Translations under genes and position numbers: made by a program | Source of the DNA: Aplectana chamaeleonis | Lineage: Eukaryota; Nematoda; Chromadorea; Rhabditida; Cosmocercidae | Direction of reading: 5' to 3' | DNA length: 64,000 nt | Assembly (NCBI GenBank): GCA_029168955.1 | Contig: JAPDOI010000009.1 | Location: 682,001-746,000, forward strand | Notes under the pieces: model-generated | Database searches by the model: none | What the model saw: the letters and a program-made list of their open reading frames with translations, nothing else | What the model was told of the DNA's origin: nothing | Part shown: piece by piece, positions 43,923 to 64,000 of the stretch | Position numbering within the stretch: position 1 is the stretch's first letter | Layout: every line of letters starts with the position of its first letter

Positions 43923-46900
43923 ATCCGCTGACTGCCAACAACTCGAACGAGGCAAAGTGTAGAGTTTTGGTCTTGCTCATCTGAATACGGGTGGAATAAA
44001 GTGCGTACGGTACCTTAAGCTTTCATTTTAACTCATGATTTAGGCCGGACTCATACTTCTAGCGCCGGGCGACGCGATTTGCTGTTTACCACTGATATCG
44101 ATCTGAAAGCCAGATGCCTCATGTCGCTGTCGCCGGAAGTATGACCCCGGCCTCAGGCTCAAACACACCTCTAACTGGCCTGAATGTTCTTCAACAGAGA
44201 ACATTGATTTTTTTCCTAATGAAAACTTTTTTCAGCGTTTCACCTGTACATTTGTTATGTATATTAATAAGCGTCCAAGTCGTCTTTCTAGTCACACACT
44301 GGGAGAAATACAACACTGGATTGTTGTATCTCTCATGGGGTTATGATCCTAGTCAATATTTAGGTTTAAAGGTTTATTTTTGTACTGGTGTAGTAAACCT
44401 ACCACGAAGTCGCCAAAGCGGCATCGCGCGTCATGGTAGGTTCTCTTCGTCATGGTTTCCCTTTTTCTCCGTCATGGTAGGTCATGGTAGGCATATTAAC
44501 GAATTCGACAATTTTCCGCGTCTCGCTTGCTGAAACCCGCATTTCCGCGCGTTTTGAGGCATTTCGCGCCGTTTTCTAGAACCCGAGAAAAAAATGTGTC
44601 GAAACCCGAAAACCGATTCCCGAAGTTTAATAATTTTTCTGCTGCCGAGATGTCGTACGTTCGCGCCGTGGCAGTGTGGAGGAAAGAAGACCACCTCCGT
44701 GCAAACCGACGTCAATCCCTCCGCGGAGAGGGTTTTTGTCATGGGAGAGGTGCTGGCTGGCCGCAGCTCTCCTGAAGATCTTACTGCAAAGAGCCGGCGT
44801 CGAGAGGAACCCAGGACCCGCGAAGAAGAAGTACCCATGTGCCACATGCGACAGAGATGTCAATTGGTATCGAACCAGCGTCCAATGTTTTGGATGCCAA
44901 AGGTGGGTGCACTTCTCTTGTTCGGGTCTCAGCTCTGTGAGGCACCACGATTCTTCCTTTCGTTGTATTGTGTGCTCCGCCTCCAGTAACTCAAATTCCT
45001 CATCTACCAACCCCCCCCTCTCTATTGTACATATCAATCTCAACGGCCTTCGCGCCAAGCTTTCTGAATTATCTCTCTTTGCCCGTACTCATCACCCGGA
45101 TGTTATCATGGCTCAGGAAACCAAACTCTCTCCCTCTGCTACCTCTCGACATCCAAACATCCCGGGCTATACTGCTTATCATACTCCTAGGTCATCTCAG
45201 GGAGGCGGAGTCTCTACTTTTTGTTCTGTCGTTCTCTTCCCTCTCACATCATTCCAAACACTCCAGTGGATGGCACTCTCAGTACATCCCCATCCATCTA
45301 CCTCTAAAAACTCCACTTTCTCTTTTCAATATATACATTCCTCCTCCTACATCCTGTCCACCAACCTACAACCCTATCCCTCTACTCAAGCAGCTGTATG
45401 ACTGCTCTCTATCTCCCTCAATTGTCTTTGCGGGTGACTTCAATGCTCACACGTTCTGCTCATCGCTTGACTCTGATGCTAGAGGAAATGACGTCGAAGA
45501 ATGGGCGGAGGAGTGCGATCTGGTTATCCTTAACGATGACCAGCCCACTCGTCTCCCTGCCTACGGCCGATCTTCCAGCCCAGACATCTCCCTTGTCTCT
45601 TCTAATCTCTCTAATGCCTGCTCTTGGTCTACATCCACAACTCTTTCCAGTGATCACATTCCGGTCTTTGTCAATATCGATCTCTCTAACTCTCTTGCTC
45701 CCTATACAGGTGTTCGTCATCGTTCTTATCTCAATTTAGGCCTTGCAGACTGGAGCCTGTTCAGGAGGTTGCACTGCGCCAAGCTGGCCGAATATCCGTG
45801 GAATGGCAATATACACCAGAAGGAGCGCCACTTCTCTGATGCCATCCGGAAGGCGATGAAAGCTGCGATCCCTGAAGGTCGTGTCAAGACCTTCTTTCCC
45901 AATGTCACCAGGAGACACTGCAGAAAATAAGGACAAAGGGACGCAAAGAGAGCTGCTGATCATCTTGACCCAGACATTGCCGAGCTGGATAATGAGATCA
46001 GGATGGACCTTGATAGGCACAAGAAAGAATCTTGGGAAAAGTTCACTGAGAAGATGAACTTCAGGAGTGATGCTGCAGCAACGTGGAAGGCTTTGAAAAG
46101 GATCTCCGGAAAGTTCACCTCCGCCAACAATTCCACGATTGAATTCGACTGCGGAGTCTTTGAGTCAGGGAAAGAGGCCGCAAATGCTCTTGGGAAGCAT
46201 TTTTTCATAACTAAAACAAAAAGAGAGAAGCAGAATAGAATAACTGTTCGGGAACTCTGTAAATTGCCATTTATGGCTGAAGATGATGCAGTCACGCCCG
46301 CTCAGGTCGAGAAGGTTATCAAGGAAATGAGTAACTCGAAGGCAGTAGGGCCAGATGGCTTGAGCCCAGCAGTTCTAAAGAGACTGCCAAGTGAACTACT
46401 ACCCCTGCTCGCTGACGTCATTAATACATCGTTTCGGACCTGTACATTACCTCAAGATTGGAAAGTAGCACGCGTCATCCCATTGCCTAAGCCGGGTAAA
46501 TCACCATCCACGGCAAAGGTTACAGGCCAATCAGTCTTCTCTCACCTATTGCCAAAGTTGCGGAAAAATTGGCTGTGGAGGAGCTCTCCGAACACAATAG
46601 CAAACAAAAGCATCAACATGGTTTCCGTAAGCTACATTCCACCACTACGGCCCTACTGGAAATTGTGAGCTATGTTTTGGACGGCTTCAATGCCATGAAA
46701 CCTCAGCGAACCGTAGGTGTAGCCCTCGATCTAACGAAGGCTTTTGACACTGTAAACTTGGGCATTTTGTCCGGAGAGCCTGTTAAGGTCTACCATTCCG
46801 CCCTGGCAGAAGCGGTGGATAACCGCATTCACCAAAGGACGTCGGGCAAATGTGCTATTTCAGGGCACGTCTCCAATAGCATCCCAATCGCCGCCGGCGT

Positions 46901-49250
46901 ACCTCAAGGAGGAGTTCTATCGCCTGCTCTTTTAGTCTGTATATTGAAGATCTACCCGTTCCATCCCAAGACATCAAGGTCGTTGCATATGCGGATGATA
47001 TTACTATACTATGCCGGGATCGCGACATAAATGTAGCTGCCAGTAAAGATCAATGACTACTTGATCGAGTTGAAATGTTTTCTCGATAGCAAGATAGCTT
47101 GTGGTCTCTGCCGCTAAATCATCCGTCACAGTCTTTTCCACTGTTCCTGCGGAGCATGGTGCTCATCCCATGGTGAAATGGGACGAAACTCGCTTGCCGG
47201 CCGCCCGTTTCCCTAAGCTACTCGGACTCGTGTTCGATCCTTCGTTGAAATTTCATAAGAACACTGAGCAGAAGTAAGCTGCAGTGAAAACAAGACTTAA
47301 CGTCCTACGTGCTCTCGGCGGAACATCCTGGGGGTGCAGTAAAGAAACGATCCTGACCACGTACAAGGCCATCGTGCAGCCCGCCCTAGAGTATGCTGCA
47401 CCAGTCTGGCAGCATATCGTGTCGGACACATCTTGGTCCAAGCTGCAGCGCATCCAAAATGGAGCACTGCGAAACGCAACAGGCTGTTCTAAAAGCTCTC
47501 CAATAGAGCAATTACATGCGAAGCTCGCATCCTGCCAGTTAAGGACCATTACCAACTCCACGCACAACAGCTGTACATAAACATTCTGAAGCAGCCAAAT
47601 CATCCGTCGCGAAGAGTATTAGACCCCGTGAGAGAGAGGTATAAGAAAGCCGTTTGCTGATGCTCCCACGAAAATCAATATACAGAGATGGACTAACGCA
47701 CAACAAGAACGCCTCCGTCTCTTACGTGCTGAGCATACCCAATTCGTCCAAGGATCACTTATGCAAGACCGCCGTAAACTCCATTCTCGGAAGTCGTGCC
47801 GCCTGAGGTCAGCGAAACCGAGATGGAACTCGGTGGCGCGTGCCAGGTGCACCATGCCTCGTTGCGCTGCGGGCACTCCCCCATGCTTATGTCTTATTTA
47901 CATAAGATCGATAGCAGCAGACCTGACGAGTGCCCGGATTGTGGTAATAAAGGGCATACTACTGCGCACCTTTTCCAACTGCCCGATGAGACCGACATCA
48001 GTTAACAACAGTAGATCTGTGGACGAATCCGACGCTTGTGGCTCAGTTCCTCAGTCTATGACAGGACCCTCTCTGTGGCTGCAGAAGAAGAAGAAGAATA
48101 ATTTTTCTCCCCTCATTCCTGGTTAGGACTAGGTGGGATCACAGACAACCCAAGAGAGCGCGAAGAGAGATAATTTTCTGTCCTTGTTCGGCGCGCGATT
48201 GATAAATATCGACCGGACGGGACTACGGCCGGTTGGCCAACCATTATGGGGTCTTTAGTGTACATACGTTACGGTGGCTACAGTGCTACTTAGTTGGCGC
48301 AACCTGCTTTAGTACTTCGAAAGTCGATTAATTGAGTCTATGTTATTCTCCGGAGCCCCAAGTAACCCTCACAGAGATACCAAACTACCGTATACCCACC
48401 GTGACCTACCATAACCTATTTAAAACCGATGAACGGACCTCAAATTTGTCTCAAACACTCCAAATATTCTCTACAGAGAAGTTCAGAGGGAAATAGATTG
48501 GCTCCCGGTGAGAGCATTGGCAAAACTATCCAGGTTCTCCGAAAGTCGACAATTGAACTCCATACTCTAGTTCAGGACGCCGAATAACCACAAAAAAAAG
48601 GTTGTGAGCCAAATCGGAACAATTTTTCTAAACACCTCGAAAACTTCCTGAAATATATGCTCTTACCCTCTCGCCCAACTGAGGGAACCTCCCTAACTTC
48701 GTTCACAGTTGCGAATTGCGAACACAGATTCGAAAACTTCATCGGAAGTACATTAGCTAGACACGACGTTTTTGACCAAAAGTGGTTTCCCTAGTTTGAT
48801 CCAAGGTTGGGCTGATGTTGCCTCGGACTTCGATGGAGTTACGCTCCCATGTTGACCAAAATTTTATTGGGAAGTTTCGGAAATATTTACGTTCTTCGTA
48901 AGTAAAGCAATTTTTCTGCCAGTTTTAGGACCGGAAAAATTCGAAACGACCGACTTATGGTAAATTTCGTTTGTGTTTTTAAATTAACTCTACCTTCCTC
49001 AACCTAACGGCGAACCTAGGGGAGTGCTTCTATTTTGGGCGAAAATATCACCCCCTCCTCCAAATTAGAACCTCCTGCGTTCCCACATTGTCCATGGTGA
49101 CAGAAACCGCTTAACTCTTCTTATATCAAACCAGTTTGGTAGATCATACGTTTAGTGATGGGCATGCTAGTGCCAAGCGCGGAGCTGGTCCTCCTTCGAG
49201 TTGCAAACGTGATCATTGTGCTGCTACACATGCACTATGGCGCGTGCGTG
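30691..49250 (+). CDS. CDP-alcohol phosphotransferase, ethanolaminephosphotransferase (EPT1/SELENOI) type; incomplete or damaged
   Basis: Transfers phosphoethanolamine from CDP-ethanolamine to diacylglycerol in ER/Golgi membranes (family knowledge). Exons seen: 30691-30756 (MGGIFDIKYLSNDQLKG...), 39891-40046 (WAPNVLTL...YDLTANNEGSDHPVPNW), 40224-40330, 40388-40466, 44236-44363 (VTHWEKYNTG, WGYDPSQYL) and 49156-49250 (HMHYGACVV, near the C-terminus). The signature DGx2ARx8Gx3Dx3D is complete: DGKQARRIGASGPTGEL ends exon 40224-40330 and FDHGLD starts the next, phases matching. Not found: the exon after codon 22, about 150 middle residues, and the last residues. In exon 39891-40046 the frame shifts by one around 39930-39955, where TCACTGGTGATGG is duplicated 24 bp apart. 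Either a decayed copy, an assembly fault, or exons missed by eye. Confidence 0.8.
30835..31090. mobile_element. Inverted-repeat element, about 250 bp
   Basis: AACCACGAAAGATATGGTTG...AGCAGCCTGCGCTG at the left is inverted at the right (CAGGCGCGGGCTGCTGAG...CTTTCGTGGTT). Outer A/T-rich flanks also pair loosely. Exact ends are uncertain. First intron of the phosphotransferase gene. Confidence 0.55.
31091..33640. other. Intron of phosphotransferase gene, repeat remnants
   Basis: Holds diverged modules of the 'ggggttatttggggtgctgaacacgaatctg' family (about 32330-32860, 33000-33030, 33590-33640), also seen inside family X. The missing second coding exon should lie between 30757 and 39890, but I could not identify it. 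Confidence 0.5.
33641..33956. mobile_element. TTAA-type MITE, AGGCAGTG subfamily (copy 3), 316 bp
   Basis: Left end AGGCAGTGTCCACGATAAAT, right end inverse ATTCATCGTGGACACTGCCT followed by TTAA (left flank TTAT). Long pairing arms include AGCGGATTTCGGAG and GAACGAACAAAAACG segments. No ORF. Confidence 0.75.
33957..34812. other. Intron stretch left of the Penelope-like element
   Basis: No exon or element end identified. The 3' region of the Penelope-like element probably starts somewhere after 34750. Confidence 0.4.
34813..34850 (-). ncRNA. Hammerhead-ribozyme-like motif at the 3' side of the Penelope-like element
   Basis: On the - strand the segment reads CCGC, CAGATGA, T, a GGGTC/GACCC hairpin with TAT loop, GAAAC, GTC, GCGG. 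The order stem I / CUGANGA / stem II / GAAA / short stem III / GUC / stem I is that of the minimal hammerheads reported in canonical Penelope-like elements. Stem I (CCGC with GCGG) and stem II pair fully. The core has A where U4 of CUGANGA is expected and an extra U before stem II, so activity is doubtful. Confidence 0.5.
35017..36867 (-). CDS. Penelope-like element protein: reverse transcriptase with C-terminal GIY-YIG endonuclease
   Basis: A 616-residue open frame, unbroken, unlike most elements here. Reverse-transcriptase blocks: KTRPIVSS (about 148-154), SFDVTALYTNV with catalytic Asp (205-215), RGLAMGNRLAP (269-279), YIDD (303-306), YLPFLNTKV (343-351), KWYKKPAS and SRSCHP (361-380). A Cys-rich linker (CGRTGCRYC, 486-494) leads to the GIY-YIG nuclease: VVYKV...FYISETGRPLHKR (507-530), with CCHH residues at about C512, C515, H534 and H552. 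The domain order is that of canonical, endonuclease-positive Penelope-like elements. The frame stays open for about 22 codons upstream of the chosen ATG and the usual N-terminal 100 or so residues are lacking, so the copy is probably 5'-truncated. It lies antisense in an intron of the phosphotransferase gene, with a hammerhead-like motif about 165 bp beyond its stop. Confidence 0.93.
   Translation of the reverse strand: MPFPRKFVCAPRNLKDNHRRTRIADNMTISERAGLQKALRLRPEMRYSVGDKCGGFVVMTKERDVDLCLTTLSDPSTYSVSSMEEYKRSCKKLEGVIKKTLDKKVDEKNVKRLLPTHATVPTFYQLVKTHKLPTLTAGEGLPNNVIKTRPIVSSCGGPTDGVSWFLNHLLSPLLKFVPSHLVNTDEFLQGLRSCELSGDHLQYKSFDVTALYTNVDTSAAINACLNSLTQHQDEIQLCNLQYDDIKTLLNEVVEFNFFSFYNVIYRQRRGLAMGNRLAPLLAILFMDNFESCLTADVLFYGRYIDDIMVITQSTSGMLEVFNGLNSRYESINLTIEAPGHDNYLPFLNTKVRMAEGVVHTKWYKKPASKNILLHSRSCHPVYMKRSVVKILLSTGRKLTSDDQADIESQLAEILHQNGYIENDLVTWRPYQSTSGTSLILPFVNESFAKEVNRAVRRSALPLRLVFRPPVTLRDLLTSSRPYENRCGRTGCRYCTADLQICQARNVVYKVTCPGCGEFYISETGRPLHKRLDEHMRALRSPSSYLNSAFSKHRTSRHAYEAAPEMRASILYKNISDTVERKIREALEIRLHSPPMNNREEMKDALKMLTLRSDLTD
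37111..38122. mobile_element. Non-autonomous DNA transposon (family X, copy 2), 1,012 bp
   Basis: Same ends (ACAAGGGAACCACAATAAGT and its inverse) and same interior modules as 6571-7660, about 80 bp shorter. No transposase. The flanks GACTC and CAGTC look like extensions of the inverted repeat rather than a direct target duplication. Confidence 0.8.
38123..39356. other. Intron stretch with repeated G-run modules
   Basis: Several diverged pieces of the type 'aggggggtcgtaaaatttt' and 'caacggcctgctcaaccctg' recur, with a perfect small palindrome GCTCAACCCTGCCAGGGTTGAGC at about 39050-39072. No coding exon is recognised. Confidence 0.5.
39357..39490. mobile_element. Foldback MITE, 134 bp, with TTA target duplication
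   Basis: TTA|GGTGGCACCTAGAGTTCTGC at the left and GCAGAACTCTAGATGCCACC|TTA at the right, arms of about 35 bp. A 3-bp TTA duplication fits PIF/Harbinger-type elements. No ORF. Confidence 0.8.
40530..40668. repeat. Pyrimidine-rich tract, left part
   Basis: The + strand is mostly C and T (CTGTCTGTCCTTCC..., TCTCTCGTTTCACTG). It continues as 42973-43930 on the other side of the retrotransposon, so the insertion split one long tract. Confidence 0.8.
40777..41594 (-). pseudogene. C-terminal part of the retrotransposon polyprotein (truncated copy)
   Basis: Encodes the region after the reverse transcriptase: KVKANVL-type helices, SRALEYAAPVW-like stretch and ATGCSKSTPVEHLHAE. It ends with a CCHC knuckle CPDCGSRGPTTEHLFDCP at about 40777-40845. 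Such a knuckle is common at the C-terminus of jockey/CR1/Ingi-group proteins. Stops and frame changes divide it from the reverse-transcriptase frame. Confidence 0.7.
41591..42523 (-). pseudogene. Reverse transcriptase of the truncated non-LTR copy
   Basis: 310 residues with the ordered blocks KAVGPDGISPAVLK, WKMASVIPLPKPGK, YRPISLLS, LHSTTTALLEI, VGVALDLTKAFDTVN (catalytic Asp), GVPQKGVISPALFSLYLEDL and AHADDITILC. Expected residues are altered: HADD instead of YADD (the full copy has YADD) and QKG instead of QGG. Probably inactive. The frame continues from 42501-42953 after a shift. Confidence 0.85.
42501..42953 (-). pseudogene. Linker region upstream of the reverse transcriptase (truncated copy)
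   Basis: About 150 residues starting HQKERHLTDAIRKAMKAAIP, closely matching the region at 45814-46230 of the full copy. The family's PHD and endonuclease parts are missing because the copy is 5'-truncated here. Confidence 0.7.
42973..43930. repeat. Pyrimidine-rich tract, right part, ending in (CT)n
   Basis: About 950 bp with an almost pure C/T + strand and a (CT) run at about 43872-43922. Apparent ORFs rich in Ser, Leu and Pro arise from this composition. With 40530-40668 it forms one tract of about 1.1 kb in the intron between phosphotransferase exons 40388-40466 and 44236-44363. Confidence 0.85.
44364..44628. other. Intron stretch with CGTCATGGTAGG repeats
   Basis: Three short copies of TCATGGTAGG between 44430 and 44490. 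No exon of the phosphotransferase is recognised here although middle exons are expected. Confidence 0.45.
44676..45240 (+). pseudogene. 2A-like peptide, PHD finger and N-terminal half of endonuclease
   Basis: In this frame the first in-element codons have no ATG (44676 is GTG); the only early ATG, 44650, is in another frame, so an early indel is likely. A hydrophobic WLAAALLKILLQ stretch precedes GVERNPGP, a 2A consensus where ribosomes skip the Gly-Pro bond. A C4HC3 PHD finger follows (Cys 55, 58, 71, 74, His 79, Cys 82, 97, 100 counting from 44676). Then the endonuclease starts: VHINLNGLR and VIMAQETKL, carrying the Asn and Glu of the active site. The frame is lost shortly after GGGVSTFCSVVLFPL. 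Confidence 0.85.
44796..44819 (+). other. 2A-like ribosome-skipping sequence GVERNPGP
   Basis: Eight codons spelling G-V-E-R-N-P-G-P, matching the 2A signature D/G-V/I-E-x-N-P-G-P, directly after a leucine-rich amphipathic run. Position between a short N-terminal leader and a PHD finger parallels the 2A sites known at the N-terminus of Ingi/L1Tc and some CR1 elements. Confidence 0.8.
45230..45930 (+). pseudogene. C-terminal half of the endonuclease and linker
   Basis: One frame off from the N-terminal half. It holds IVFAGDFNAH (catalytic Asp and Asn), EEWAEECDLVILND, SSPDISLVS and LSSDHIPVFV (catalytic Asp-His pair), so the endonuclease active site is complete apart from the frameshift. It runs on into HQKERHFSDAIRKAMKAAIP, shared with the truncated copy, and stops at 45928-45930. 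Confidence 0.8.
46003..47100 (+). pseudogene. Reverse transcriptase of the full-length copy, several frameshifts
   Basis: Frame 1: KAVGPDGLSPAVLKRLPS and DWKVARVIPLPKPGK up to about 46520. Frame 0: LHSTTTALLEIVSYVLDG, VGVALDLTKAFDTVN (catalytic Asp) and GVPQGGVLSPAL up to about 46925. A third frame carries VVAYADDITILCRD (YADD box near 46981-47010). At least three frame changes mean no functional protein from this copy as sequenced. Confidence 0.85.
47250..48005 (+). pseudogene. C-terminal domain with degenerate CCHC knuckle
   Basis: Matches the C-terminal region of the truncated copy (VLRALGGTSWG, YKAIVQPALEYAAPVW, CSKSSPIEQLHA) in shifted frames, then CPDCGNKGHTTAHLFQLP at about 47932-47985, where the last Cys of the knuckle is replaced by Leu. 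The truncated copy keeps that Cys. Confidence 0.7.
48109..49155. other. Intron stretch right of the retrotransposon
   Basis: Contains diverged modules with CCGTATACCCACCGTGACC and similar words also seen around 7.2, 32.5 and 33.5 kb. No phosphotransferase exon was recognised although about 150 residues of the protein are unaccounted for before the exon at 49156. Confidence 0.5.
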
Positions 49251-50234: not shown

Positions 50235-51018
50235 CGTGGGTGTGCGGCAAAGGAATTTAAAATTACGGCAAACGGCAACGGCAAACCCCAAAAATGGCCG
50301 GCAAACGGCAAAATCAGTTTTTTGCTATAATACACCAACATTTTTTAGTCGTGTGGTGTTCCACGCAATATGTACCAGTTACTATGTGCCTTGCGTTTCA
50401 CTCGAATTACAGGAAGAAAAAATCCCGTAAATTAAAAGCTATTCGAAAGGCTCAGGTGATCAGAGAATCGTAGCGCTGTTCTATATGTGAACTGTAAACG
50501 GAGTCACTATCAAGATCAGCAGGGCTGGATGATTAGTCGACATTTGTGGCGATAGACAGCCCTCACCTAACTCATGACATGGGCCACTCACAATTTTCAC
50601 TTTTATAGCAAGTGGTACACGCAGGATTCTCTTTGTCGCTCACTTGATATGGTTTCACTTGTGAGGCTACAGGAGCGGAGTGAAAGCCGCTGCGCTCACG
50701 TCGCCGCTGGAGCGCCGCGTGCAGTGCGTTTAGATAGCCGGACTGCTCTTGGGCGCTTCCATTTCGGTGTATTCGGTCTACAAGCCGGCACGAGGCTTAT
50801 TACGACAACAATGTCGGCTAAAAACGAGCAATAAGTCGCTCTTAACGGTCCCAAACTTAAATGTGGTGTGTTCGCACCACCCACTTCCCTTGTGGCTACA
50901 GACGAAGTGGGAGTGGCGAGCACACCACGTTCAAGTTTCGGGGCCGTATATGTGCTGCAATTATTATCATTTTTCCCTCTTTAGACGGTTTCTCAACAAA
51001 CTCAGCTCTGCCACTGAG
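50235..51018. mobile_element. Second hAT-type element copy, reversed, cut by the tandem array
   Basis: Starts CGTGGGTGTGCGGCAAAGGA, a slightly mutated form of the CAGGGGTGTGCGG end at 24.37-26.93 kb. It then follows that element in reverse orientation: the TTGCCG module, ATACACCAACATTTTTTAGT, the GCGCCGC/CGTGAGCGCAGCGG segment and AACAAACTCAGCTC. A stretch corresponding to about 26.23-26.69 kb is missing. Similarity stops at GAGTC(AA) around 51018-51022, where the Penelope-type array begins. Confidence 0.78.
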
Positions 51019-51309
51019 TCAATAGAAAAGAAGATATGTTACAGAAAACGGAAGAAAATGAAAGGCTATAACTGACAATGTTTCGCCTCTTATCCCTAGA
51101 CATTGTAGAAAATGAGCAAAATGGAGTTAAAATTATGTAGAATAAGCACTCCCCGAGGCTCATCGGTAGGGTAGAGGAGTGCAATAAGAATCATAATGTT
51201 AGTAGCCACTTTATATACGGGAAGAGGTCAAGAAATTGGCGCCAAGTGAGTCAAGCAGAGACCAAATACAGAGACGTGTTGCTAAAGAAAAAGAAGAGAG
51301 TAGGGGAGG

Positions 51310-54203
51310 ATTAACTACAAGCTAGTTTACCTAAACTGGTAAGGATATTTACCAAGTCACGAGTATTGCTATAAGGTAATCCAAATTTATGAAATAAGTT
51401 ATTTCTAACAATGCATTTGAAAATCGACTTAAAAATAGTATTTTCTGTATAACCTAGGTCAAACAACTCATTAATCAAGATACTAATCCTATTCGTAAAA
51501 CGACTCTGTTAGAAAACAAGTTCTAGAAATTCTCAAAGTTTCGGTGTAAATGATAGATTCTTTCAACTGTTTTGAAATCACAGAACTATTATGGGGAACC
51601 TATGTACCCTAAAGTTGAAAAGTTCGGTTTATTAAATAACTTGGTAATAATCTTATTTTCTTTAATTAGAATATCCAAGTCTAGGTACTGGCAATGACTA
51701 GGGCAGGAATGAGTAGTATCAAAATGCATAACATCATTGTAAGTGGTTTTCAAAACTTTGGACAAAATTTTCTTCATAATTATGTATGATCAAAAGATCA
51801 TCCATGTATCTAAAGGCTTGAAAATTTTATTTTTAGATTTTTCCAATTTTTAGAATAGTTGTATTCAGAGTAGCATAAGGTGAGGTCTGCAATAATTGGA
51901 CTAGCATTTCCACCCTGTGGTACTCCTTTAACTTGTTTAAAAATAGAATTGCCTGTTCTACAAAAGCTGTTATCCAGAAGAAAATTCAAAAGGTAAACAA
52001 CATCCTGTATTTGATAATACCTAAAGTTAGTCAAATTAGTCTCATCAGAATAGAAACTGTGATAACCATTAGTGGCTATGTATTTTTTGTTAGCATTTCT
52101 GAAACAAATTTCAAGAATAGCTGAGATATTTCTAATAATAAAGCTATGAGGAATGTTAGTGAACATATTAGTGAAATCAGCTGAATATACTTTGATGTTA
52201 CTATACTCTAAGCAAAAAAGTTGTTGTGAAATATCAATATTGTCGATAGACCAGAAATTAGAAAAGCAATTAGTATTATTAAATACCATTTTACTATAGT
52301 TTCGGAAATGTTTTTGAAAAAGGTAAGAATGTTTTTGATTTCTATGGCTAGGCTTTTGATGGAGCTACAAAATGCTCCACAAATGAAGCGGAATTTAATA
52401 GGGTTTTTATGTAACTTAGGTAAGCAGTAAATTATAGGTATATCGCCTTTTTCAACAACTGGTAAGTTATTAGCAAGGAGAAATTTTTCATGTTTTTTAA
52501 TGATATCCGTAGTGTCACTAATATCAGTTCGTTCATAAATTTCATTTGAAGTATTCCCGCTAGATGATGTACCCATTTCTGATAAAATTGTTTTTATATA
52601 CAATTTTTTACAAATGAATCCATAATTGTTACTAGCTTTATCCAAAGGGCAAATAACAAAGTTGTCCTGAATATGTGTCAAGGTTGTTTTGAAATTAACC
52701 GGTAAATCATCATAGGCATGACTATTGTAAATGAAAGGTTTAATCTTCTTTTTAAGAAGTTGGGTATAGGATTTATCGAGATCTTTCACCTTAGAGGTAC
52801 TAAGTTTATATCTAGTTTTGATTTTATAAATAACGTGCTCAATAAAATTGTTCCAAATGTGCTTAATGTCAGTAATTTTGAGTTTAATCTTAGGTCTAAA
52901 TTTCGTTCCTTTCCTAAGAATCTGTCTGATATCAGATTGGGGAAAGATTTCCAAATCTCCTGTAACAATATGCATGTGGTGAGGATCTTTGAAGCGGTCA
53001 AACTGTTTATTTTCACAAATACAAGGAGAGTTAATAATGTGGTTGATTTCAGAAGTAGGTATAGTTTTTAGGAATCGGTTATAATTGAATACTAATTTAG
53101 AAATAGGTTGATTATAGGAGTAAATTACTCTGAATGGGGTGTATTTAATGTTAGTGTTCCTATCAAGGAATCTTTTAAGAAGTTTGTGGTTAAGAAGTCT
53201 ATTAATATTAATATTGTTAAGAATTTCATTGTAGAAAGGAAATTTGATGTTTATATACTGGGTACTATTTCTATCAGTTCTATATTGAGTTTTACCAAAA
53301 TAATATGGACAAAGAGAAGTAAGCAAAAGGAGTCTTTTTCTTTCAGAAAGGTTTAATGGTAACTTTTGTTTGAGAATTATGTCAATTAAAATATCACGGA
53401 ATTTATCAGTTTTACATTTGAGTTCACGAAACAATTTGTAATCATTATTTTCTATTAACAAGCAGGAGATGGTGTTCAAAACACTGTATGAATCAAATTT
53501 GGTTTCAGATTTTTTCTTTTTAGTGTTACCTCTATTAAAACGTTGTTTAATAATTTAAAGGTTGAAGAAAGGGTGATTAGGTTTATGTAGAAGAGGATTA
53601 GGTATATTAGTAATATTCCCGTATCCTTTGATATTGTCGTTAAATCCGAAAGGAAAGGAAGTCATGAGTAACTTGATCCAAAAAAGTTCTTTATTAAGTA
53701 GAACTTTTTTATCTTTATTTTCTTCTAAATTATCAAGGATAGTAATCCTAATATTTGCTATGTTACACCCAGAGTCACTAAAATGTCGGTAAAAAAATTT
53801 TATCGTCTTTTCCAATATTTGTGAGATGTTCTAACATCCGAGATTTGAGTTCTCGAGTGGTAACACCAACATATTGTTTCCGACAATCAAAACATGTTAG
53901 GCAGTAGATAACATTTCTAGATTTGCAGTCGGAAAAGGACGCCTTATATGTATTAATACGAAAACATGTGGTGCAACTATCTATAATAAAGCTTTGATTC
54001 AGTAACTTACAAACGCTACATTTTTTATTAGAACAATTAGTACTAGTGTACTCGTTGCCAAAATTTTGTAGATAGTACCGACCTTCTCTTTTAATTTTGT
54101 AAAATAATATTTTTTCATAATATTTAGGGGAGCTTTGCGTCAGATTGACAGCGCGACCAACTTGACCCGCAAGATGCGAGTACGCCGGCGAAAACGATCC
54201 CAA
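51310..54203 (-). pseudogene. Permuted Penelope-like protein, unit A (frameshifted)
   Basis: Same protein as in unit B. Pieces: 53778-54203 (N-terminus and GIY-YIG motif), 53555-53815, 52208-53479 (CxC motif, LPKLHKNPIKFRFICG, start of reverse transcriptase), 51810-52289 (YSADFTNMFTNI, GVPQGGNASPII) and 51589-51777. Breaks coincide with homopolymer length changes relative to units B and C, for example one A fewer before the YMDD box near 51810. They may be true decay or sequencing error. Confidence 0.85.
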
Positions 54204-54229
54204 TTTGTTATTTTTGGAAAGTTTTAGCC

Positions 54230-54430
54230 CGAAATTTTTGGACCAGTAGACTGGCTAAGATAGGCCCATGAGTGTTAGCCAGTGGGGGGGTTGCATGAAA
54301 ATGCTTTGGCTGGGCTGCAGCCAGGGCTTAGCGAAGCCCTAAAAAGAGGGGCAATCTCTAGCCTCCCGAGGACACCCACCCCCACCAAGCTGGGTGCCCT
54401 CTTATAAGGGGATCAAAGAGATTGTGCAGA
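54230..54430. promoter_or_regulatory. GC-rich structured segment between the divergent genes, unit A
   Basis: In an AT-rich unit this 200-bp stretch is GC-rich and can fold: AGGGCTT-AGCG-AAGCCCT is a perfect 7-bp hairpin, GGCTGGGCTGCAGCC pairs with itself, and CAATCTCT pairs with AGAGATTG about 70 bases on. CTTATAAGG (near 54412) resembles a TATA box pointing towards the spliced gene. Role as a shared promoter or structured leader is inference. Confidence 0.45.
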
Positions 54431-54805
54431 AGGTGGTACTATCTATAGACAGTTAGGAAGGAAATAATTCAAAAGGCTGATAGAAAATCATAAAAAAGAG
54501 GAAATACAGGTGAGTATGTCAAAAGGTTAGTATGTTAAAAGATTGCAGCGATTCCAAACCAGAAATTATTCTAAATTATTGAGAAAATAGATGAAAGTCT
54601 AAGTAATGGTGCTCCAATATATCACAGAAGTACTGTATTAAAGGGCGAAAATATGGGTGTTCTAGGCCTAAAAATTGTTGGAAGTTAACAATTATATCAG
54701 AAGTTCTCTAGATTTCATTGAACCATTCCCTTCATCTTGGTACTAGTGAAAGTTAATCAAATAGTTCTAGCTATAGTGATAATCTAAAATATTCAAATAT
54801 TTCAG

Positions 54806-55920
54806 TATGGAATCTGATGCATCAAGGATCAGGAATCATGAGGAATTCGTTCAAGGGCGAGCACTGATGGAACGTTTACGAGTGATAAATATTCCGATTC
54901 GATTTTACAAGGATTTGAAATTGCTGGTAAAGGACATACCGGAATGGACATAGGGTGAGTAATGAAACACTCTTATAAAAAGAATATAAGGAGGAGTAAT
55001 TAAACGTACTAAAATTAGTGTGAGCAGGATTTAAAAAAAATGCTCAGATGAAAAAGGTCTAGAAAAGGTCTAGAAAAATACCACAGAAGAAATAGGATAA
55101 AACGATATAAGTCATTACAGGTATGTCAACGCAGATGATAAATTTCCGCTAACATGGCCAACACAGATAGGAAAGAAAACGGATGTATTCTCAGTCAGCG
55201 TAAGTAAGCAAATCGAGAAATCACAAATGTAAAAAGATCAAGATACAATTGCAGGTCAAAATGTCATATGCTTATTGGAATGATTTCCTGTCGAATGGTA
55301 AAGATGTCTTGGAGGCTTTCAACAAGAAGAACACATGTAAAATTAGGTTCATCCAGGAGAAGACAATGAGAAGTAATGAAAAATGCAGACTATGGTAAGC
55401 AAGGTTAAACGTAATAAAAAGCTGTTGTGGTTAAAATGAATAAGATATTACAGCTTGTATGTGAGACATCAACTACGTCAACGTTATCAAAAACAAGGAA
55501 AATCTCCAATAGAGATGAAGATACAAAGGACAAACTGAAATTAGGTGAACTAGGGGTAAGTTAAAATTCAGCTAGGAAATTAGGAGAGTGAAAGAAAAAA
55601 TGATATTTGATTAGCATAAATGTACATATGTTCAGATATTTGATCCTGTAGTTTTGGTAGCTAGGCTCGAAATCGATATGACGGACTGGAAAGGGCTATC
55701 AATAGAGTCACTAATGGATGAATGGACAAAGAAACACCTGGTGAGTGAGCAACATAGATAAGAGTGTGAAAAAGGAATAAATAAAAGTATTAAGATCGGA
55801 GAAAAAGCGCTGGGTACAATGACTCTTCCTGGATTAGACAACAACAAGAGGAAGGCTGAAGAAGAAGTCATAGTGGACAAGAGATGCAGAATGGAGGAAA
55901 CAGATGATAATATAGAGTAA
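54806..55920 (+). pseudogene. Antisense six-exon passenger gene, unit A (broken copy)
   Basis: Same exon plan as the intact copy in unit B (ATG at 54807, TAA at 55918-55920). Two differences break it. At the end of exon 1 the sequence reads ACATAGGGTGAG where unit B has ACAGGGTGAG, giving a TAG before the donor. In exon 4 one G is missing from AAAGGGACA, which brings an in-frame TGA. Splice borders and the AATAAA after the stop are kept. Confidence 0.7.
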
Positions 55921-56561
55921 TCAATGCATTAAGAAGGAATAAATCATTGTGCTCGGATTACAAGATTGAAATTGTATATAAGCGATATCGCAAAGGAGTT
56001 AAGCTAAAATCAAAGTAAGACTGAATATAGGATCGTTAACAAGGAAAAAGTTAAGTGTAAGTAGGAAGGGGATAGGAACGCAAACAATGAGGATGGCCGT
56101 ATGGCCTGGCCGTATGGTTTACGAGTTACTAGGACCGTATGGTCTAGCAAAAATCAAGGAAAGGATCCGAATGAAATTAGATATCAAAAAGAGTACATCA
56201 ATATGTATTCGGGCTAGTAAAGATTAGCCCCCTGGGTTACCCTCAAGGAGGAAAATCTCACTAGCGAAAATCAATAGAAAAGAAGATATGTTACAGAAAA
56301 CGGAAGAAAATGAAAGGCTATAACTGACAATGTTTCGCCTCTTATCCCTAGACATTGTAGAAAATGAGCAAAATGGAGTTAAAATTATGTAGAATAAGCA
56401 CTCCCCGAGGCTCATCGGTAGGGTAAGGAGTGCAATAAGAATCATAATGTTAGTAGCCACTTTATATACGGGAAGAGGTCAAGAAATTGGCGCCAAGTGA
56501 GTCAAGCAGAGACCAAATACAGAGACGTGTTGCTAAAGAAAAAGAAGAGAGTAGGGGAGGA

Positions 56562-59423
56562 TTAACTACAAGCTAGTTTACCTAAACTGGTAAGGATATT
56601 TACCAAGTCACGAGTATTGCTATAAGGTAATCCAAATTTATGAAATAAGTTATTTCTAACAATGCATTTGAAAATCGACTTAAAAATAGTATTTTCTGTA
56701 TAACCTAGGTCAAACAACTCATTAATCAAGATACTAATCCTATTCGTAAACGACTCTGTTAGAAAACAAGTTCTAGAAATTCTCAAAGTTTCGGTGTAAA
56801 TGATAGATTCTTTCAACTGTTTTGAAATCACAGAACTATTATGGGGGAACCTATGTACCCTAAAGTTGAAAAGTTCGGTTTTATTAAATAACTTGGTAAT
56901 AATCTTATTTTCTTTAATTAGAATATCCAAGTCTAGGTACTGGCAATGACTAGGGCAGGAATGAGTAGTATCAAAATGCATAACATCATTGTAAGTGGTT
57001 TTCAAAAAACTTTGGACAAAATTTTCTTCATAATTATGTATGATCAAAAGATCATCCATGTATCTAAAAGGCTTGAAAATTTTATTTTTAGATTTTTTCC
57101 AATTTTTAGAATAGTTGTATTCAGAGTAGCATAAGGTGAGGTCTGCAATAATTGGACTAGCATTTCCACCCTGTGGTACTCCTTTAACTTGTTTAAAAAT
57201 AGAATTGCCTGTTCTACAAAAGCTGTTATCCAGAAGAAAATTCAAAAGGTAAACAACATCCTGTATTTGATAATACCTAAAGTTAGTCAAATTAGTCTCA
57301 TCAGAATAGATTAGCATTTCTGAAACAAATCTCAAGAATAGCTGAGATATTTCTAATTATAAAGCTATGAGGAATGTTAGTGAACATATTAGTGAAATCA
57401 GCTGAATATACTTTGATGTTACTATACTCTAAGCAAAAAGTTGTTGTGAAATATCAATATTGTCGATAGACCAGAAATTAGAAAAGCAATTAGTATTATT
57501 AAATACCATTTTACTATAGTTTCAGAAATGTTTTTTTGAAAAAGGGAAGAAAGTTTTTGAGTTCTATGGCCAGGTTTTTGATGGAGCTACAAATGCTCCA
57601 CAAATGAAGCGGAATTTAATAGGGTTTTATGTAACTTAGGTAAGCAGTAAATTATAGGTATATCGCCTTTTTCAACAACTGGTAAGTAATTAGCAAGGAG
57701 AAATTTTTCATGTTTTTTAATGATATCCGTAGTGTCACTAATATCAGTTCGTTCATAAATTTCATTTGAAGTATTCCCGCTAGATGATGTACCCATTTCT
57801 GATAAAATTGTTTTTATATACAATTTTTTACAAATGAATCCATAATTGTTACTAGCTTTATCCAAAGGGCAAATAACAAAGTTGTCCTGAATATGTGTCA
57901 AGGTTGTTTTGAAATTAACCGGTAAATCATCATAGGCATGACTATTGTAAATGAAAGGTTTAATCTTCTTTTTAAGAAGTTGGGTATAGGATTTATCGAG
58001 ATCTTTCACCTTAGAGGTACTAAGTTTATATCTAGTTTTAATTTTATAAATAACGTGCTCAATAAAATTGTTCCAAATGTGCTTAATGTCAGTAATTTTG
58101 AGTTTAATCTTAGGTCTAAATTTCGTTCCTTTCCTAAGAATCTGTCTGATATCAGATTGGGGAAAGATTTCCAAATCTCCTGTAACAATATGCATGTGGT
58201 GAGGATCTTTGAAGCGGTCAAACTGTTTATTTTCACAAATACAAGGAGAGTTAATAATGTGGTTGATTTCAGAAGTAGATATAGTTTTTAGGAATCGGTT
58301 ATAATTAAATATTAATTTAGAAATAGGTTGATTATAGGAGTAGATTACTCTGAATGGGGTGTAGTTAATATAAGTGTTCCTATCAAAGGATCTTTTGAGA
58401 AGTTTATTGTTATGAAGTCTATTAATATTAATTTTGTTAAGAATTTCATTGTAGAAAGGAAATTTTATGTTTTTATACTTGGTACTATTTCTATCAGTTC
58501 TATATTGAGTTTTACCAAAATAATATGGACAAAGAGAAGTAAGCAAAAGGAGTCTTTTCTTTCGAAAGGTTTAATGGTAACTTTTGTTTGAGAATTATGT
58601 CAATTAAAATATCCCGGAATTTATCAGTTTTACATTTGAGTTCACGAAACAATTTGTAATCATTATTTTCTATTAACAAGCGGGAGATGGTGTTCAAAAC
58701 ACTGTATGAATCAAATTTGGTTTCAGATTTTTTCTTTTTAGTGTTACCTCTATTAAAACGTTGTTTAATAATTTTAAGGTTGAAGAAAGGGTGATTAGGT
58801 TTATGTAGAAGAGGATTAGGTATATTAGTAATATTCCCGTATCCTTTGATATTGTCGTTAAATCCGAAAGGAAAGGAAGTCATGAGTAACTTGATCCAAA
58901 AAAGTTCTTTATTAAGTAGAACTTTTTTATCTTTATTTTCTTCTAAATTATCAAGGATAGTAATCCTAATATTTGCTATGTTACACCCAGATTCACTAAA
59001 ATGTCGGTAAAAAATTTTTTTATCGTCTTTTCCAATATTTCTGAGATGTTCTAACATCCGAGATTTGAGCTCTCGAGTGGTAACACCAACATATTGTTTC
59101 CGACAATCAAAACATGTTAGGCAGTAGATAACATTTCTAGATTTGCAGTCGGAAAAGGACGCCTTATATGTATTAATACGAAAACATGTGGTGCAACTAT
59201 CTATAATAAAGCTTTGATTCAGTAACTTACAAACGCTACATTTTTTATTAGAACAATTAGTACTAGTGTACTCGTTGCCAAAATTTTGTAGATAGTACCG
59301 ACCTTCTCTTTTAATTTTGTAAAATAATATTTTTTCATAATATTTAGGGGAGCTTTGCGTCAGATTGACAGCGCGACCAACTTGACCCGCAAGATGCGAG
59401 TACGCCGGCGAAAACGATCCCAA
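56562..59423 (-). CDS. Naiad-type Penelope-like protein: N-terminal GIY-YIG, CxC motif, reverse transcriptase
   Basis: Starts at ATG 59423 (MGSFSPAYSH...). N-terminal part: Cys-rich CSNKKCSVC, then GIY-YIG nuclease VIYCLTC...QYVGVTTRELKSR (98-122) with CCHH residues C104, C107, H126, H141 and the downstream ELFWIKLLMTSFPFGFN block. After a frame change near 58550 (homopolymer; continuous in units A and C) comes NSPCICENKQF, the CxC motif at 58235-58243, then the reverse transcriptase: IIYCLPKLHK, GVPQGGNASPI, YMDD (FRYMDDLLIIHN) and QYLDLDILI. Total span would give about 950 residues. N-terminal nuclease plus CxC plus CCHH defines the Naiad clade, which copies RNA into DNA and is related to telomerase. 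Read as one protein with two or three frame breaks; a deletion near 57310 removes part of the block with the first catalytic Asp. Confidence 0.88.
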
Positions 59424-59449
59424 TTTGTTATTTTTGGAAAGTTTTAGCC

Positions 59450-59650
59450 CGAAATTTTTGGACCAGTAGACTGGCTAAGATAGGCCCATGAGTGTTAGCC
59501 AGTGGGGGGGTTGCATGAAAATGCTTTGGCTGGGCTGCAGCCAGGGCTTAGCGAAGCCCTAAAAAGAGGGGCAATCTCTAGCCTCCCGAGGACACCCACC
59601 CCCACCAAGCTGGGTGCCCTCTTATAAGGGGATCAAAGAGATTGTGCAGA
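59450..59650. promoter_or_regulatory. GC-rich structured segment between the divergent genes, unit B
   Basis: Practically identical to 54230-54430 of unit A: same hairpin AGGGCTT/AAGCCCT, same CAATCTCT/AGAGATTG pair, TATA-like CTTATAAGG at about 59631. A consensus donor CAG|GTGAGT at 59728/59729 lies downstream, which would join a non-coding first exon to the ATG exon at 60025. Confidence 0.45.
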
Positions 59651-60024
59651 AGGTGGTACTATCTATAGACAGTTAGGAAGGAAATAATTCAAAAGGCTGA
59701 TAGAAAATCATAAAAAGAGGAAATACAGGTGAGTATGTCAAAAGGTTAGTATGTTAAAAGATTGCAGCGATTCCAAACCAGAAATTATTCTAAATTATTG
59801 AGAAAATAGAAGAAAGTCTAAGTAATGGTGCTCCAATATATCACAGAAGTACTGTATTAAAGGGCGAAAATATGGGTGTTCTAGGCCTAAAAATTGTTGG
59901 AAGTTAACAATTATATCAGAAGTTCTCTAGATTTCATTGAACCATTCCCTTCATCTTGGTACTAGTGAAAGTTAATCAAATAGTTCTAGCTATAGTGATA
60001 ATCTAAAATATTCAAATATTTCAG

Positions 60025-61149
60025 TATGGAATCTGATGCATCAAGGATCAGGAATCATGAGGAATTCGTTCAAGGGCGAGCACTGATGGAACGTTTACGA
60101 GTGATAAATATTCCGATTCGATTTTACAAGGATTTGAAATTGCTGGTAAAGGACATACCGGAATGGACAGGGTGAGTAATGAAACACTCTTATAAAAGAA
60201 TATAAGGAGGAGTAATTAAACGTACTAAAATTAGTGTGAGCAGGATTTAAAAAAAAAAAAAAAAAATGCTCCAGATGAAAAAAGGTCTAGAAAAAGGTCT
60301 AGAAAAATACCACAGAAGAAATAGGATAAAACGATATAAGTCATTACAGGTATGTCAACGCAGATGATAAATTTCCGCTAACATGGCCAACACAGATAGG
60401 AAAGAAAACGGATGTATTCTCAGTCAGCGTAAGTAAGCAAATCGAGAAATCACAAATGTAAAAAGATCAAGATACAATTGCAGGTCAAAATGTCATATGC
60501 TTATTGGAATGATTTCCTGTCGAATGGTAAAGATGTCTTGGAGGCTTTCAACAAGAAGAACACATGTAAAATTAGGTTCATCCAGGAGAAGACAATGAGA
60601 AGTAATGAAAAATGCAGACTATGGTAAGCAAGGTTAAACGTAATAAAAGCTGTTGTGGTTAAAATGAATAAGATATTACAGCTTGTATGTGAGACATCAA
60701 CTACGTCAACGTTATCAAAAACAAGGAAAATCTCCAATAGAGATGAAGATACAAAGGGACAAACTGAAATTAGGTGAACTAGGGGTAAGTTAAAATTCAG
60801 CTAGGAAATTAGGAGAGTGAAAGAAAAAATGATATTTGATTAGCATAAATGTACATATGTTCAGATATTTGATCCTGTAGTTTTGGTAGCTAGGCTCGAA
60901 ATCGATATGACGGACTGGAAAGGGCTATCAATAGAGTCACTAATGGATGAATGGACAAAGAAACACCTGGTGAGTGAGCAACATAGATAAGAGTGTGAAA
61001 AAGGAATAAATAAAAGTATTAAGATCGGAGAAAAAGCGCTGGGTACAATGACTCTTCCTGGATTAGACAACAACAAGAGGAAGGCTGAAGAAGAAGTCAT
61101 AGTGGACAAGAGATGCAGAATGGAGGAAACAGATGATAATATAGAGTAA
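60025..61149 (+). CDS. Unknown 232-residue protein from a six-exon gene carried antisense in the Penelope-like unit
   Basis: Exons 60025-60171 (ATG 60026), 60350-60428, 60484-60623, 60682-60784, 60865-60969 and 61024-61149 (TAA 61147-61149). Five introns of about 55-180 bp have GT...AG borders, four with strong GTGAGT/GTAAGT donors; phases agree throughout. AATAAA follows at 61167-61172. The acceptor ATTTCAG sits one base before the ATG, typical of a nematode trans-splice or 5'-UTR acceptor; a possible upstream donor is at 59729. The product is basic and mostly helical in look: MERLRVINIPIRFYKDLKLL, FLSNGKDVLEAFNKKNTC, CLYVRHQLRQRYQKQGK, ending with an NLS-like NNKRKAEEE and an acidic tail. 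No family is recognised. It is divergent from the reverse-transcriptase gene, about 600 bp apart. Could be a host gene captured by the element or an element-encoded factor. Confidence 0.75.
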
Positions 61150-61498
61150 TCAATGCATTAAGAAGGAATAAATCATTGTGCTCGGATTACAAGATTGAAA
61201 TTGTATATAAGCGATATCGCAAAGGAGTTAAGCTAAAATCAAAGTAAGACTGAATATAGGATCGTTAACAAGGAAAAGGTTAAGTGTAAGTAGGAAGGGG
61301 ATAGGAAGGCAATCAATGAGGATGGCCGTATGGCCTGGGCTGTATGGCCTACGAGTTACTAGACCGTATGGTCTAGCAAAATCAAGGAAAGGATCCGAAT
61401 GAAATTAGATATCAAAAAGAGTACATCAATATGTATTCGGGCTAGTAAAGATTAGCCCCTGGAGTTACCCTCAAGGAGGAAAATCTCACTAGCGAAAA

Positions 61499-64000
61499 TC
61501 AATAGAAAAGAAGATATGTTACAGAAAACGGAAGAAAAATGAAAGGCTATAACTGACAATGTTTCGCCTCTTATCCCTAGACATTGTAGAAAATGAGCAA
61601 AATGGAGTTAAAATTATGTAGAATAAGCACTCCCGAGGCTCATCGGTAGGGTAAGGAGTGCAATAAGAATCATAATGTTAGTAGCCACTTTATATACAGG
61701 AAGAGGTCAAGAAATTGGCGCCAAGTGAGTCAAGCAGAGACCAAATACAGAGACGTGTTGCTAAAGAAAAAGAAGAGAGTAGGGAGGATTAACTACAAGC
61801 TAGTTTACCTAAACTGGTAAGGATATTTACCAAGTCACGAGTATTGCTATAAGGTAATCCAAATTTATGAAATAAGTTATTTCTAACAATGCATTTGAAA
61901 ATCGACTTAAAAATAGTATTTTCTGTATAACCTAGGTCAAACAACTCATTAATCAAGATACTAATCCTATTCGTAAACGACTCTGTTAGAAAACAAGTTC
62001 TAGAAATTCTCAAAGTTTCTGGTGTAAATGATAGATTCTTTCAACTGTTTTGAAATCACAGAACTATTATGGGGAACCTATGTACCCTAAAGTTGAAAAG
62101 TTCGGTTTTATTAAATAACTTGGTAATAATCTTATTTTCTTTAATTAGAATATCCAAGTCTAGGTACTGGCAATGACTAGGGCAGGAATGAGTAGTATCA
62201 AAATGCATAACATCATTGTAAGTGGTTTTCAAAAAACTTTGGACAAAATTTTTCTTCATAATTATGTATGATCAAAAAGATCATCCATGTATCTAAAAGG
62301 CTTGAAAATTTTATTTTTAGATTTTTCCAATTTTAGAATAGTTGTATTCAGAGTAGCATAAGGTGAGGTCTGCAATAATTGGACTAGCATTTCCACCCTG
62401 TGGTACTCCTTTAACTTGTTTAAAAATAGAATTGCCTGTTCTACAAAAAGCTGTTATCCAGGAGAAAATTCAAAAGGTAAACAACATCCTGTATTTGATA
62501 ATACCTAAAGTTAGTCAAATTAGTCTCATCAGAATAGAAACTGTGATAACCATTAGTGGCTATGTATTTTTTGTTAGCATTTCTGAAACAAATTTCAAGA
62601 ATAGCTGAGATATTTCTAATAATAAAGCTATGAGGAATGTTAGTGAACATATTAGTGAAATCAGCTGAATATACTTTGATGTTACTATACTCTAAGCAAA
62701 AAAGTTGTTGTGAAATATCAATATTGTCGATAGACCAGAAATTAGAAAAGCAATTAGTATTATTAAATACCATTTTACTATAGTTTCGGAAATGTTTTTT
62801 GAAAAAGGTAAGAATGTTTTTGATTTCTATGGCTAGGCTTTTGATGGAGCTACAAAATGCTCCACAAATGAAGCGGAATTTAATAGGGTTTTTATGTAAC
62901 TTAGGTAAGCAGTAAATTATAGGTATATCGCCTTTTTCAACAACTGGTAAGTTATTAGCAAGGAGAAATTTTTCATGTTTTTTAATGATATCCGTAGTGT
63001 CACTAATATCAGTTCGTTCATAAATTTCATTTTAAGTATTCCGCTAGATGATGTACCCATTTCTGATAAAATTGTTTTTATATACAATTTTTTACAAATG
63101 AATCCATAATTGTTACTAGCTTTATCCAAAGGGCAAATAACAAAGTTGTCCTGAATATGTGTCAAGGTTGTTTTGAAATTAACCGGTAAATCATCATAGG
63201 CATGACTATTGTAAATGAAAGGTTTAATCTTCTTTTTAAGAAGTTGGGTATAGGATTTATCGAGATCTTTCACCTTAGAGGTACTAAGTTTATATCTAGT
63301 TTTAATTTTATAAATAACGTGCTCAATAAAATTGTTCCAAATGTGCTTAATGTCAGTAATTTTGAGTTTAATCTTAGGTCTAAATTTCGTTCCTTTCCTA
63401 AGAATCTGTCTGATATCAGATTGGGGAAAGATTTCCAAATCTCCTGTAACAATATGCATGTGGTGAGGATCTTTGAAGCGGTCAAACTGTTTATTTTCAC
63501 AAATACAAGGAGAGTTAATAATGTGGTTGATTTCAGAAGTAGATATAGTTTTTAGGAATCGGTTATAATTAAATATTAATTTAGAAATAGGTTGATTATA
63601 GGAGTAAATTACTCTGAATGGGGTGTATTTAATATTAGTGTTCCTATCAAGGAATCTTTTAAGAAGTTTGTGGTTAAGAAGTCTATTAATATTAATATTG
63701 TTAAGAATTTCATTGTAGAAAGGAAATTTGATGTTTATATACTGGGTACTATTTCTATCAGTTCTATATTGAGTTTTACCAAAATAATATGGACAAAGAG
63801 AAGTAAGCAAAAGGAGTCTTTTTTCTTTCGAAAGGTTTAATGGTAACTTTTGTTTGAGAATTATGTCAATTAAAATATCACGGAATTTATCAGTTTTACA
63901 TTTGAGTTCACGAAACAATTTGTAATCATTATTTTCTATTAACAAGCGGGAGATGGTGTTCAAAACACTGTATGAATCAAATTTGGTTTCAGATTTTTTC
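61499..64000 (-). mobile_element. Tandem unit C of the permuted Penelope-like element, cut by window end
   Basis: Third head-to-tail unit; only its 3' half is inside the window. Near-identical to units A and B with small homopolymer differences. The array continues past 64000, so its length and right border are unknown. Confidence 0.88.
61789..64000 (-). pseudogene. Permuted Penelope-like protein, unit C (partial, frameshifted)
   Basis: 62917-63963 is open from the linker after the nuclease through the CxC motif into the first reverse-transcriptase blocks. 62441-62773 carries YSADFTNMFTNI with the catalytic Asp, and 62056-62259 and 61789-62013 the C-terminal part. A lost base near 63030 (ATTTTAAGTATTCCGC versus ATTTGAAGTATTCCCGC) and others at homopolymers break the frame. 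The N-terminal nuclease lies beyond the window. Confidence 0.82.

Follow-up and report, generated by a model that had tools for sequence, protein, structure and literature searches.

A spliced gene that lies antisense to a reverse transcriptase (RT) within a tandemly repeated unit raises the question of whether the gene belongs to the mobile element or has only been multiplied along with it. Such a gene is found in a 64,000-nucleotide stretch from the nematode Aplectana chamaeleonis (contig JAPDOI010000009.1, positions 682,001 to 746,000), which is called the window here and from whose first letter all positions are counted. A preliminary description of this locus had claimed an intact six-exon passenger gene in each complete unit of a permuted Penelope-like element. 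In this study we examine the array, the element, the gene model, the unit boundary and the encoded protein, and then weigh the explanations that could account for them.

Results

The right part of the window is occupied by a tandem array (51019-64000, no strand assigned) delimited by blastn self-comparison, by the junction letters and by repeat family D1. Unit A is placed at 51019-56270, unit B at 56271-61498 and unit C from 61499 onward, the last being cut by the window end before the passenger gene. The array is truncated there and its right edge lies outside the window. The units are about 5.24 kb long. Shifted by one unit, the array matches itself at 97.5% identity across 7.8 kb, and unit A matches unit C at 98.9% across the 2.5 kb visible (both by blastn), showing tandem and partial-tandem copies of the Penelope-like type. 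The gene in unit A is flanked by element sequence of two units, which follows from the tandem array alone, no separate pseudo-LTR (pLTR) being delimited. About 80 bases left of the array edge lies a long near-perfect foldback (50853-50938), perhaps a small inverted-repeat transposon, with a weak match to mir-4433 in Rfam (27.6 bits against a cut-off of 77). No tRNAs are found in the window.

Each unit contains a Penelope-like element on the minus strand, in which a GIY-YIG endonuclease stands ahead of the reverse transcriptase, an order that we take to be the permuted architecture named Naiad. In unit B the N-terminal element ORF (58512-59474, minus strand) carries GIY-YIG at residues 115-197 (Pfam PF01541, E 1.2e-5, 26 bits, cut-off 22.6), and the RT core with the C terminus (56562-57356, minus strand) matches RVT_1 (E 9.4e-8, 32.4 bits, cut-off 29.6). 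Between them the ORF list gives a linker with the early part of the RT (57587-58570, minus strand), in a frame that differs from that of the N-terminal piece. This middle piece matches no RT family in Pfam, and its counterpart in unit A has 25 relatives among 7480 candidates, several of them with RVT_1. In unit B both domains thus pass their Pfam cut-offs and share a strand, with frame breaks dividing them between separate ORF pieces, and the preliminary reading of a permuted Penelope-like element in tandem units is borne out. In unit A the ORF list gives the element ORF in broken pieces (51810-54254, minus strand: GIY-YIG at 53778-54254, linker at 52208-53554 and RT at 51810-52364), and its domains fall below the cut-offs for that reason (GIY-YIG 19.7 bits against 22.6; RVT_1 25.1 against 29.6). 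The unit alignment reveals a 35-bp deletion at 57310 in the RT of unit B relative to unit A, and the reading frame of the RT is interrupted in each of the three units seen, in some cases at single-base runs, so that the array may have died or been poorly assembled. Near the start of the RT ORF (59475-59516, minus strand) there is no ATG, and those just upstream in that frame are separated from it by a TAG; the ORF may begin at a non-ATG codon or in a 5' exon.

The endonuclease ORF has four relatives at 33-43% identity among 1048 candidates, one of which, P0004, has its endonuclease after the RT, contrary to the permuted order. A relative of the RT, P0018 (784 aa), opens with the final part of this endonuclease (residues 5-39, 46% identity, E 1e-4); RT motifs follow downstream by pattern, with no family assigned by Pfam. 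Pfam finds both domains together in none of the 10 relatives scanned, out of 29 in all, and no relative of the endonuclease ORF is confirmed in viral and GTDB contigs, a set that may omit records of the window's own genome.

Other elements occur elsewhere in the window. A 638-aa ORF with RVT_1 (35017-36933, minus strand) has a GIY-YIG-like stretch near its C end that is visible by eye only and absent from Pfam results; it resembles a canonical Penelope-like element, which would then share the window with the permuted one. There are also two LINE remnants, one on the plus strand (44634-47030), with an endonuclease and a sub-cut-off PHD finger at 44634-45401, and one on the minus strand (40962-42971), with RVT_1 at 41591-42553. 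The plus-strand LINE copy carries near its start a 2A-like VERNPGP motif. The first 1100 bases (1-1100) consist of minisatellite-like repeats with open frames on both strands.

The passenger gene lies on the plus strand between successive RT ORFs, and its antisense position, as first described, is confirmed. In unit B, the gene model has six coding exons, at 60026-60171, 60350-60428, 60484-60623, 60682-60784, 60865-60969 and, including the stop, 61024-61149 (all plus strand), which join into one open frame of 699 nt encoding 232 amino acids and a stop. The ATG stands at 60026, one base after the start given earlier. The five donors, GTGAGTAA, GTAAGTAA, GTAAGCAA, GTAAGTTA and GTGAGTGA, all read GTRAG, and the introns, of 54-178 nt, all end in AG; the proper borders claimed before hold in this respect, but the fifth acceptor (TATTAAG) is weak. 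The agreement of phases over six exons likewise holds in unit B but not in unit A, where the frame is broken. An AATAAA polyadenylation signal at 61167-61172 (plus strand, by motif scan) starts at the 18th base after the stop, as had been reported. The ATTTCAG noticed just before the ATG is also present, as TTTCAG|T in unit B, and is repeated in unit A. Upstream, a motif scan picks out a candidate promoter (TATAA at 59623) and a putative 5' UTR exon with the donor ACAG|GTGAGT (59623-59728, plus strand), from which a predicted UTR intron (59729-60024) would run to that acceptor, the next exon beginning at 60025. The same motifs recur in unit A at 54403, 54510 and 54806. These motifs suggest that the passenger begins with a non-coding exon, and such an exon would account for the ATTTCAG just before the ATG. 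A scan for bacterial-type promoters stays at the level of shuffled sequence, and the GC-rich hairpins at 59474-59640, read in RT sense, are not significant (z -0.48).

A blind search for the longest spliced ORF recovers the same six exons in unit B as 729 nt, favouring in-frame acceptors 9 nt upstream for exon 2 and 21 nt upstream for exon 5, while none of 200 dinucleotide shuffles reaches this length (mean 199, sd 77, maximum 516) and the minus strand of the gene stretch yields 240 nt. The off-frames of the joined sequence contain 24 and 17 stops against the terminal stop only in the true frame. There is a modest codon-position bias (chi-square P 0.005), and among 243 phase combinations the true one comes only 15th. 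The 729-nt length is also attained in five of the 72 other 1.4-kb pieces of the window; minisatellite, LINE or RT sequence underlies four of these, and the one from 5600 has no such explanation. That stretch, 5600-7000, gives a 735-nt spliced ORF by the blind search, and a 178-aa ORF within it (5949-6485) matches no Pfam family. The gene model of unit B is strong.

The copy in unit A (54807-55920, plus strand) is broken as assembled, so that the claim of an intact gene in each complete unit does not stand; of the two complete units, only B has an intact copy. In unit A, a 2-bp insertion (AT) near 54951 creates an in-frame TAG at codon 49, and a G is missing from a three-base run in exon 4, near 55527. 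The blind search yields only 447 nt in this unit. A tblastn search of the window with the protein recovers the copies of both complete units, plus a single chance match (E 5.5). The alignment of the two units contains 51 substitutions and 26 indels, 19 of the latter within single-base runs of three or more, a pattern that resembles long-read consensus errors. The missing G of exon 4 may be such an error, and the frame breaks of unit A are possibly assembly errors; the AT insertion, however, lies outside any single-base run of that kind. We conclude that a spliced gene antisense to the RT, intact in one of two complete units, is probably real.

The substitutions between units A and B are very unevenly placed: none in the 699 nt of exons, none in the 425 nt of introns, one in 551 nt of 5' spacer, six in 349 nt from the stop to the junction and 34 in the 2.9 kb of the RT part. 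The dN/dS comparison suggested earlier was made and has nothing to count. All five introns are present, free of substitution, in both array copies, which lie at one locus. Since the introns are as identical as the exons, this indicates recent copying or conversion and says nothing for constraint on the coding sequence. Where all three units can be compared, 23 substituted sites set apart unit B, nine unit A and three unit C. Those of unit B fall largely in two blocks (57331-57688 and 58343-58480), in which it mostly departs from A and C alike, and suggest conversion from a diverged RT copy existing now or formerly elsewhere.

Beside the unit junction, a strong RNA fold is predicted on the minus strand at 61290-61493 (z -5.16), with its unit A copy at about 56060-56265 (z -4.38); the plus strand of unit B gives z -3.02. 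The fold accounts for the two lowest z-scores among 70 minus-strand windows scanned along the unit. The left edge of the array, at 51019, is equivalent to 56271 and 61499 and lies about 290 nt past the RT stop. In both units the strong outer stem starts 6 nt from this edge, and the 200 nt that form the fold begin, in RT sense, at the edge-equivalent point in the next unit. The leftmost copy therefore ends at the point where the terminal fold of the unit would start, as is expected of an element terminus. This match, noticed post hoc and at a single edge, favours a position of the passenger within the element's bounds, with the fold on one side and the RT ORF on the other. The purine richness of the plus strand extends from the gene region through the junction to the RT stop with no visible border between host and element. 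A hammerhead near the repeat junction occurs in some Penelope-like elements and is not a defining feature of them. At the junction described here a hammerhead was considered and rejected: Rfam gives no match in the window at the gathering cut-off, none of the eight sub-threshold matches (E<=10) in 50500-64000 is a ribozyme, and the sole match to the core pattern in unit B sits in exon 6.

The passenger protein has 42 K/R and 37 D/E residues, and its lysine/arginine-rich tail resembles a nuclear signal. In the profile search proposed earlier for the 232-residue protein, the best Pfam match (E 0.35, 10.9 bits) falls far short of its cut-off of 26.6. None of 163 candidates drawn from about 5.8 billion proteins is a relative at E<=1, no PDB chain matches at E<=10, and no relative is confirmed in GTDB and viral contigs, which may omit records of the window's own genome. 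A known protein family for the passenger is therefore rejected on the Pfam, collection and PDB results. The protein collection may well miss spliced genes, so the absence of relatives is weak evidence.

Discussion

We put the probability at about one half that this locus is a permuted, Naiad-type element of about 5.24 kb, with the divergent spliced gene for 232 amino acids in its spacer copied together with the unit. The unit structure, the domain order and the gene model in unit B are observed in the window. Co-mobility of the passenger with the element is the favoured interpretation of the one array seen at one locus. The spacer between successive RT ORFs would take the place of a pseudo-LTR and hold the divergently transcribed passenger. 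A plus-strand passenger mRNA, spliced and polyadenylated at the AATAAA, would start from a promoter next to the RT ORF's 5' end, and RT-sense transcripts from the minus strand would run through several units. Because these transcripts are of the minus strand, the passenger introns would not be recognised on them and would be copied with the unit. For a canonical Penelope-like element, published work describes tandem arrays transcribed over several copies, reverse transcription that starts near the ORF start, and insertion into its own pLTR as a possibility (PMC11167929). With a cycle of this kind, the passenger's spacer, upstream of the RT ORF, would be copied at an early stage. The array could grow by insertion of element cDNA into its own junctions, by unequal exchange or by both, and the passenger may have arisen as an accessory gene of the element or as a captured host gene. 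In favour of this explanation are the close match of the array to itself when shifted by one unit, the endonuclease-first order, the open gene model of unit B, the fold at the array edge and the substitution blocks in the RT of unit B. Counted against it are the presence of copies at one locus only, none with other flanks having been seen, the broken state of one of the two complete passenger copies, the frame breaks of the RT in all units seen, the lack of any sign of coding constraint and the post hoc nature of the match between fold and edge.

The strongest rival, which we regard as somewhat unlikely, is local segmental amplification, in which a host gene beside a Penelope-like insertion was duplicated in tandem with it by unequal exchange and lies outside the mobile unit. 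All copies seen at a single locus fit this history, as does the near-identity of exons, introns and 5' spacer alike, which is consistent with recent duplication or conversion, and no protein relative ties the gene to other elements. However, an arbitrary breakpoint would rarely land, as the array edge does, 6 nt away from a fold found again at the unit junction, and the purine-rich plus strand running unbroken through the junction to the RT stop shows no visible host-element border. It is improbable, in our judgement, that another transposon carrying the gene entered the spacer of a single Penelope-like copy prior to formation of the array and was then amplified with it. The lack of relatives for the passenger and the several further retroelement remnants in the window are compatible with such an insertion, but no direct or inverted repeat pair of at least 14 nt brackets the gene in unit A, and the protein matches no transposase or integrase family in Pfam. 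Least probable is the reading in which open stretches of A-rich sequence were linked into a gene model by chance, for which the weak fifth acceptor, the modest codon-position bias, the phase rank of 15 of 243, the five of 72 other pieces of equal length and the lack of a homologue may be cited, and against which stand the failure of all 200 shuffles to reach 729 nt, the 24 and 17 off-frame stops against one terminal stop, GTRAG at five of five donors and the AATAAA 18 nt after the stop.

A bolder form of the co-copying explanation is that the passenger is a dedicated second gene of a permuted Penelope-like family, with six coding exons on the antisense strand and a nuclear protein that acts in or regulates retrotransposition, its introns persisting because the transposition RNA is always of the opposite strand. 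We consider this version unlikely and offer it as speculation. If it were true, the window would show, by the literature searched, the earliest known case of a Penelope-like element with two genes transcribed divergently, one of them a stable partner with introns. Should the gene be part of the element at all, Penelope-like elements can keep a stable intron-bearing partner gene on the antisense strand. This would bear on the open question of which strand serves as the transposition template, since antisense introns retained in copies across many loci would indicate an RT-sense RNA. A further consequence would be that, where genomes are rich in these elements, some of the genes with introns may be retrocopies.

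How does such an arrangement compare with known systems? Naiad and Chlamys are Penelope-like elements with permuted domains, reportedly described by Craig et al. (2021). By definition their GIY-YIG domain is N-terminal to the RT, as in the window element. To our knowledge, an antisense spliced gene is no part of their description. The combination found here was not met in the literature searched, a set without the main Naiad paper and the original Terminon paper. The novelty is nevertheless smaller than the preliminary description had supposed, since both the spread of an intron-containing gene by Penelope and Penelope-like elements with many extra ORFs, the Terminons, have been published.

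Antisense genes are known from other classes of mobile elements. The plant LTR retrotransposons Grande, RIRE2 and Retand also have an antisense gene of unknown family, although they belong to a different retroelement class and their antisense ORF follows pol (PMC7264820). An own promoter is described for the Grande antisense ORF and a possible nuclear role for such ORFs; the word intron is absent from that text, yet the conclusion urges looking for antisense and spliced transcripts (PMC7264820). A Didymium group I intron likewise contains an antisense, spliceosomally spliced gene inside a mobile element, but this is a homing intron whose gene encodes a known enzyme, a homing endonuclease, and has a single spliceosomal intron of 47 nt (PMC9548176).

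Closer relatives are found among the Penelope-like elements themselves. The Terminons, giant Athena-type elements of rotifer telomeres with many extra ORFs, resemble the window array in having Penelope-like RT units, extra ORFs and head-to-tail arrangement, and host genes are often captured between neighbours (PMC6431247, PMC5408684). They are described as endonuclease-deficient, up to 40 kb long and provided with a 3'-terminal hammerhead (PMC6431247, PMC5408684). In contrast, the window element has its own GIY-YIG, which sets it apart from Terminons, a unit of 5.2 kb and no hammerhead found.

A further close case is Penelope of Adineta vaga, which according to Arkhipova et al. (2013) moved an intron-containing NRPS gene placed between pLTRs, so that there, as proposed here, Penelope machinery carried a gene with its introns (PMC3846280). 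The retention of the introns is explained there by a proposed antisense template, and the gene lacks internal element sequence, was moved in trans and is marked by an 8-bp duplication (PMC3846280). The suggestion made in the preliminary description, that introns persist on a strand where they go unrecognised, had thus already been put forward for Penelope (PMC3846280). The window gene differs in sharing its unit with the RT, in being antisense to it and in encoding a protein for which no family was found. The template would also be reversed, as RT-sense RNA would be the one to keep the introns of an antisense gene here. The parts of this arrangement are each known from other retroelements, though not in this combination in the literature searched.
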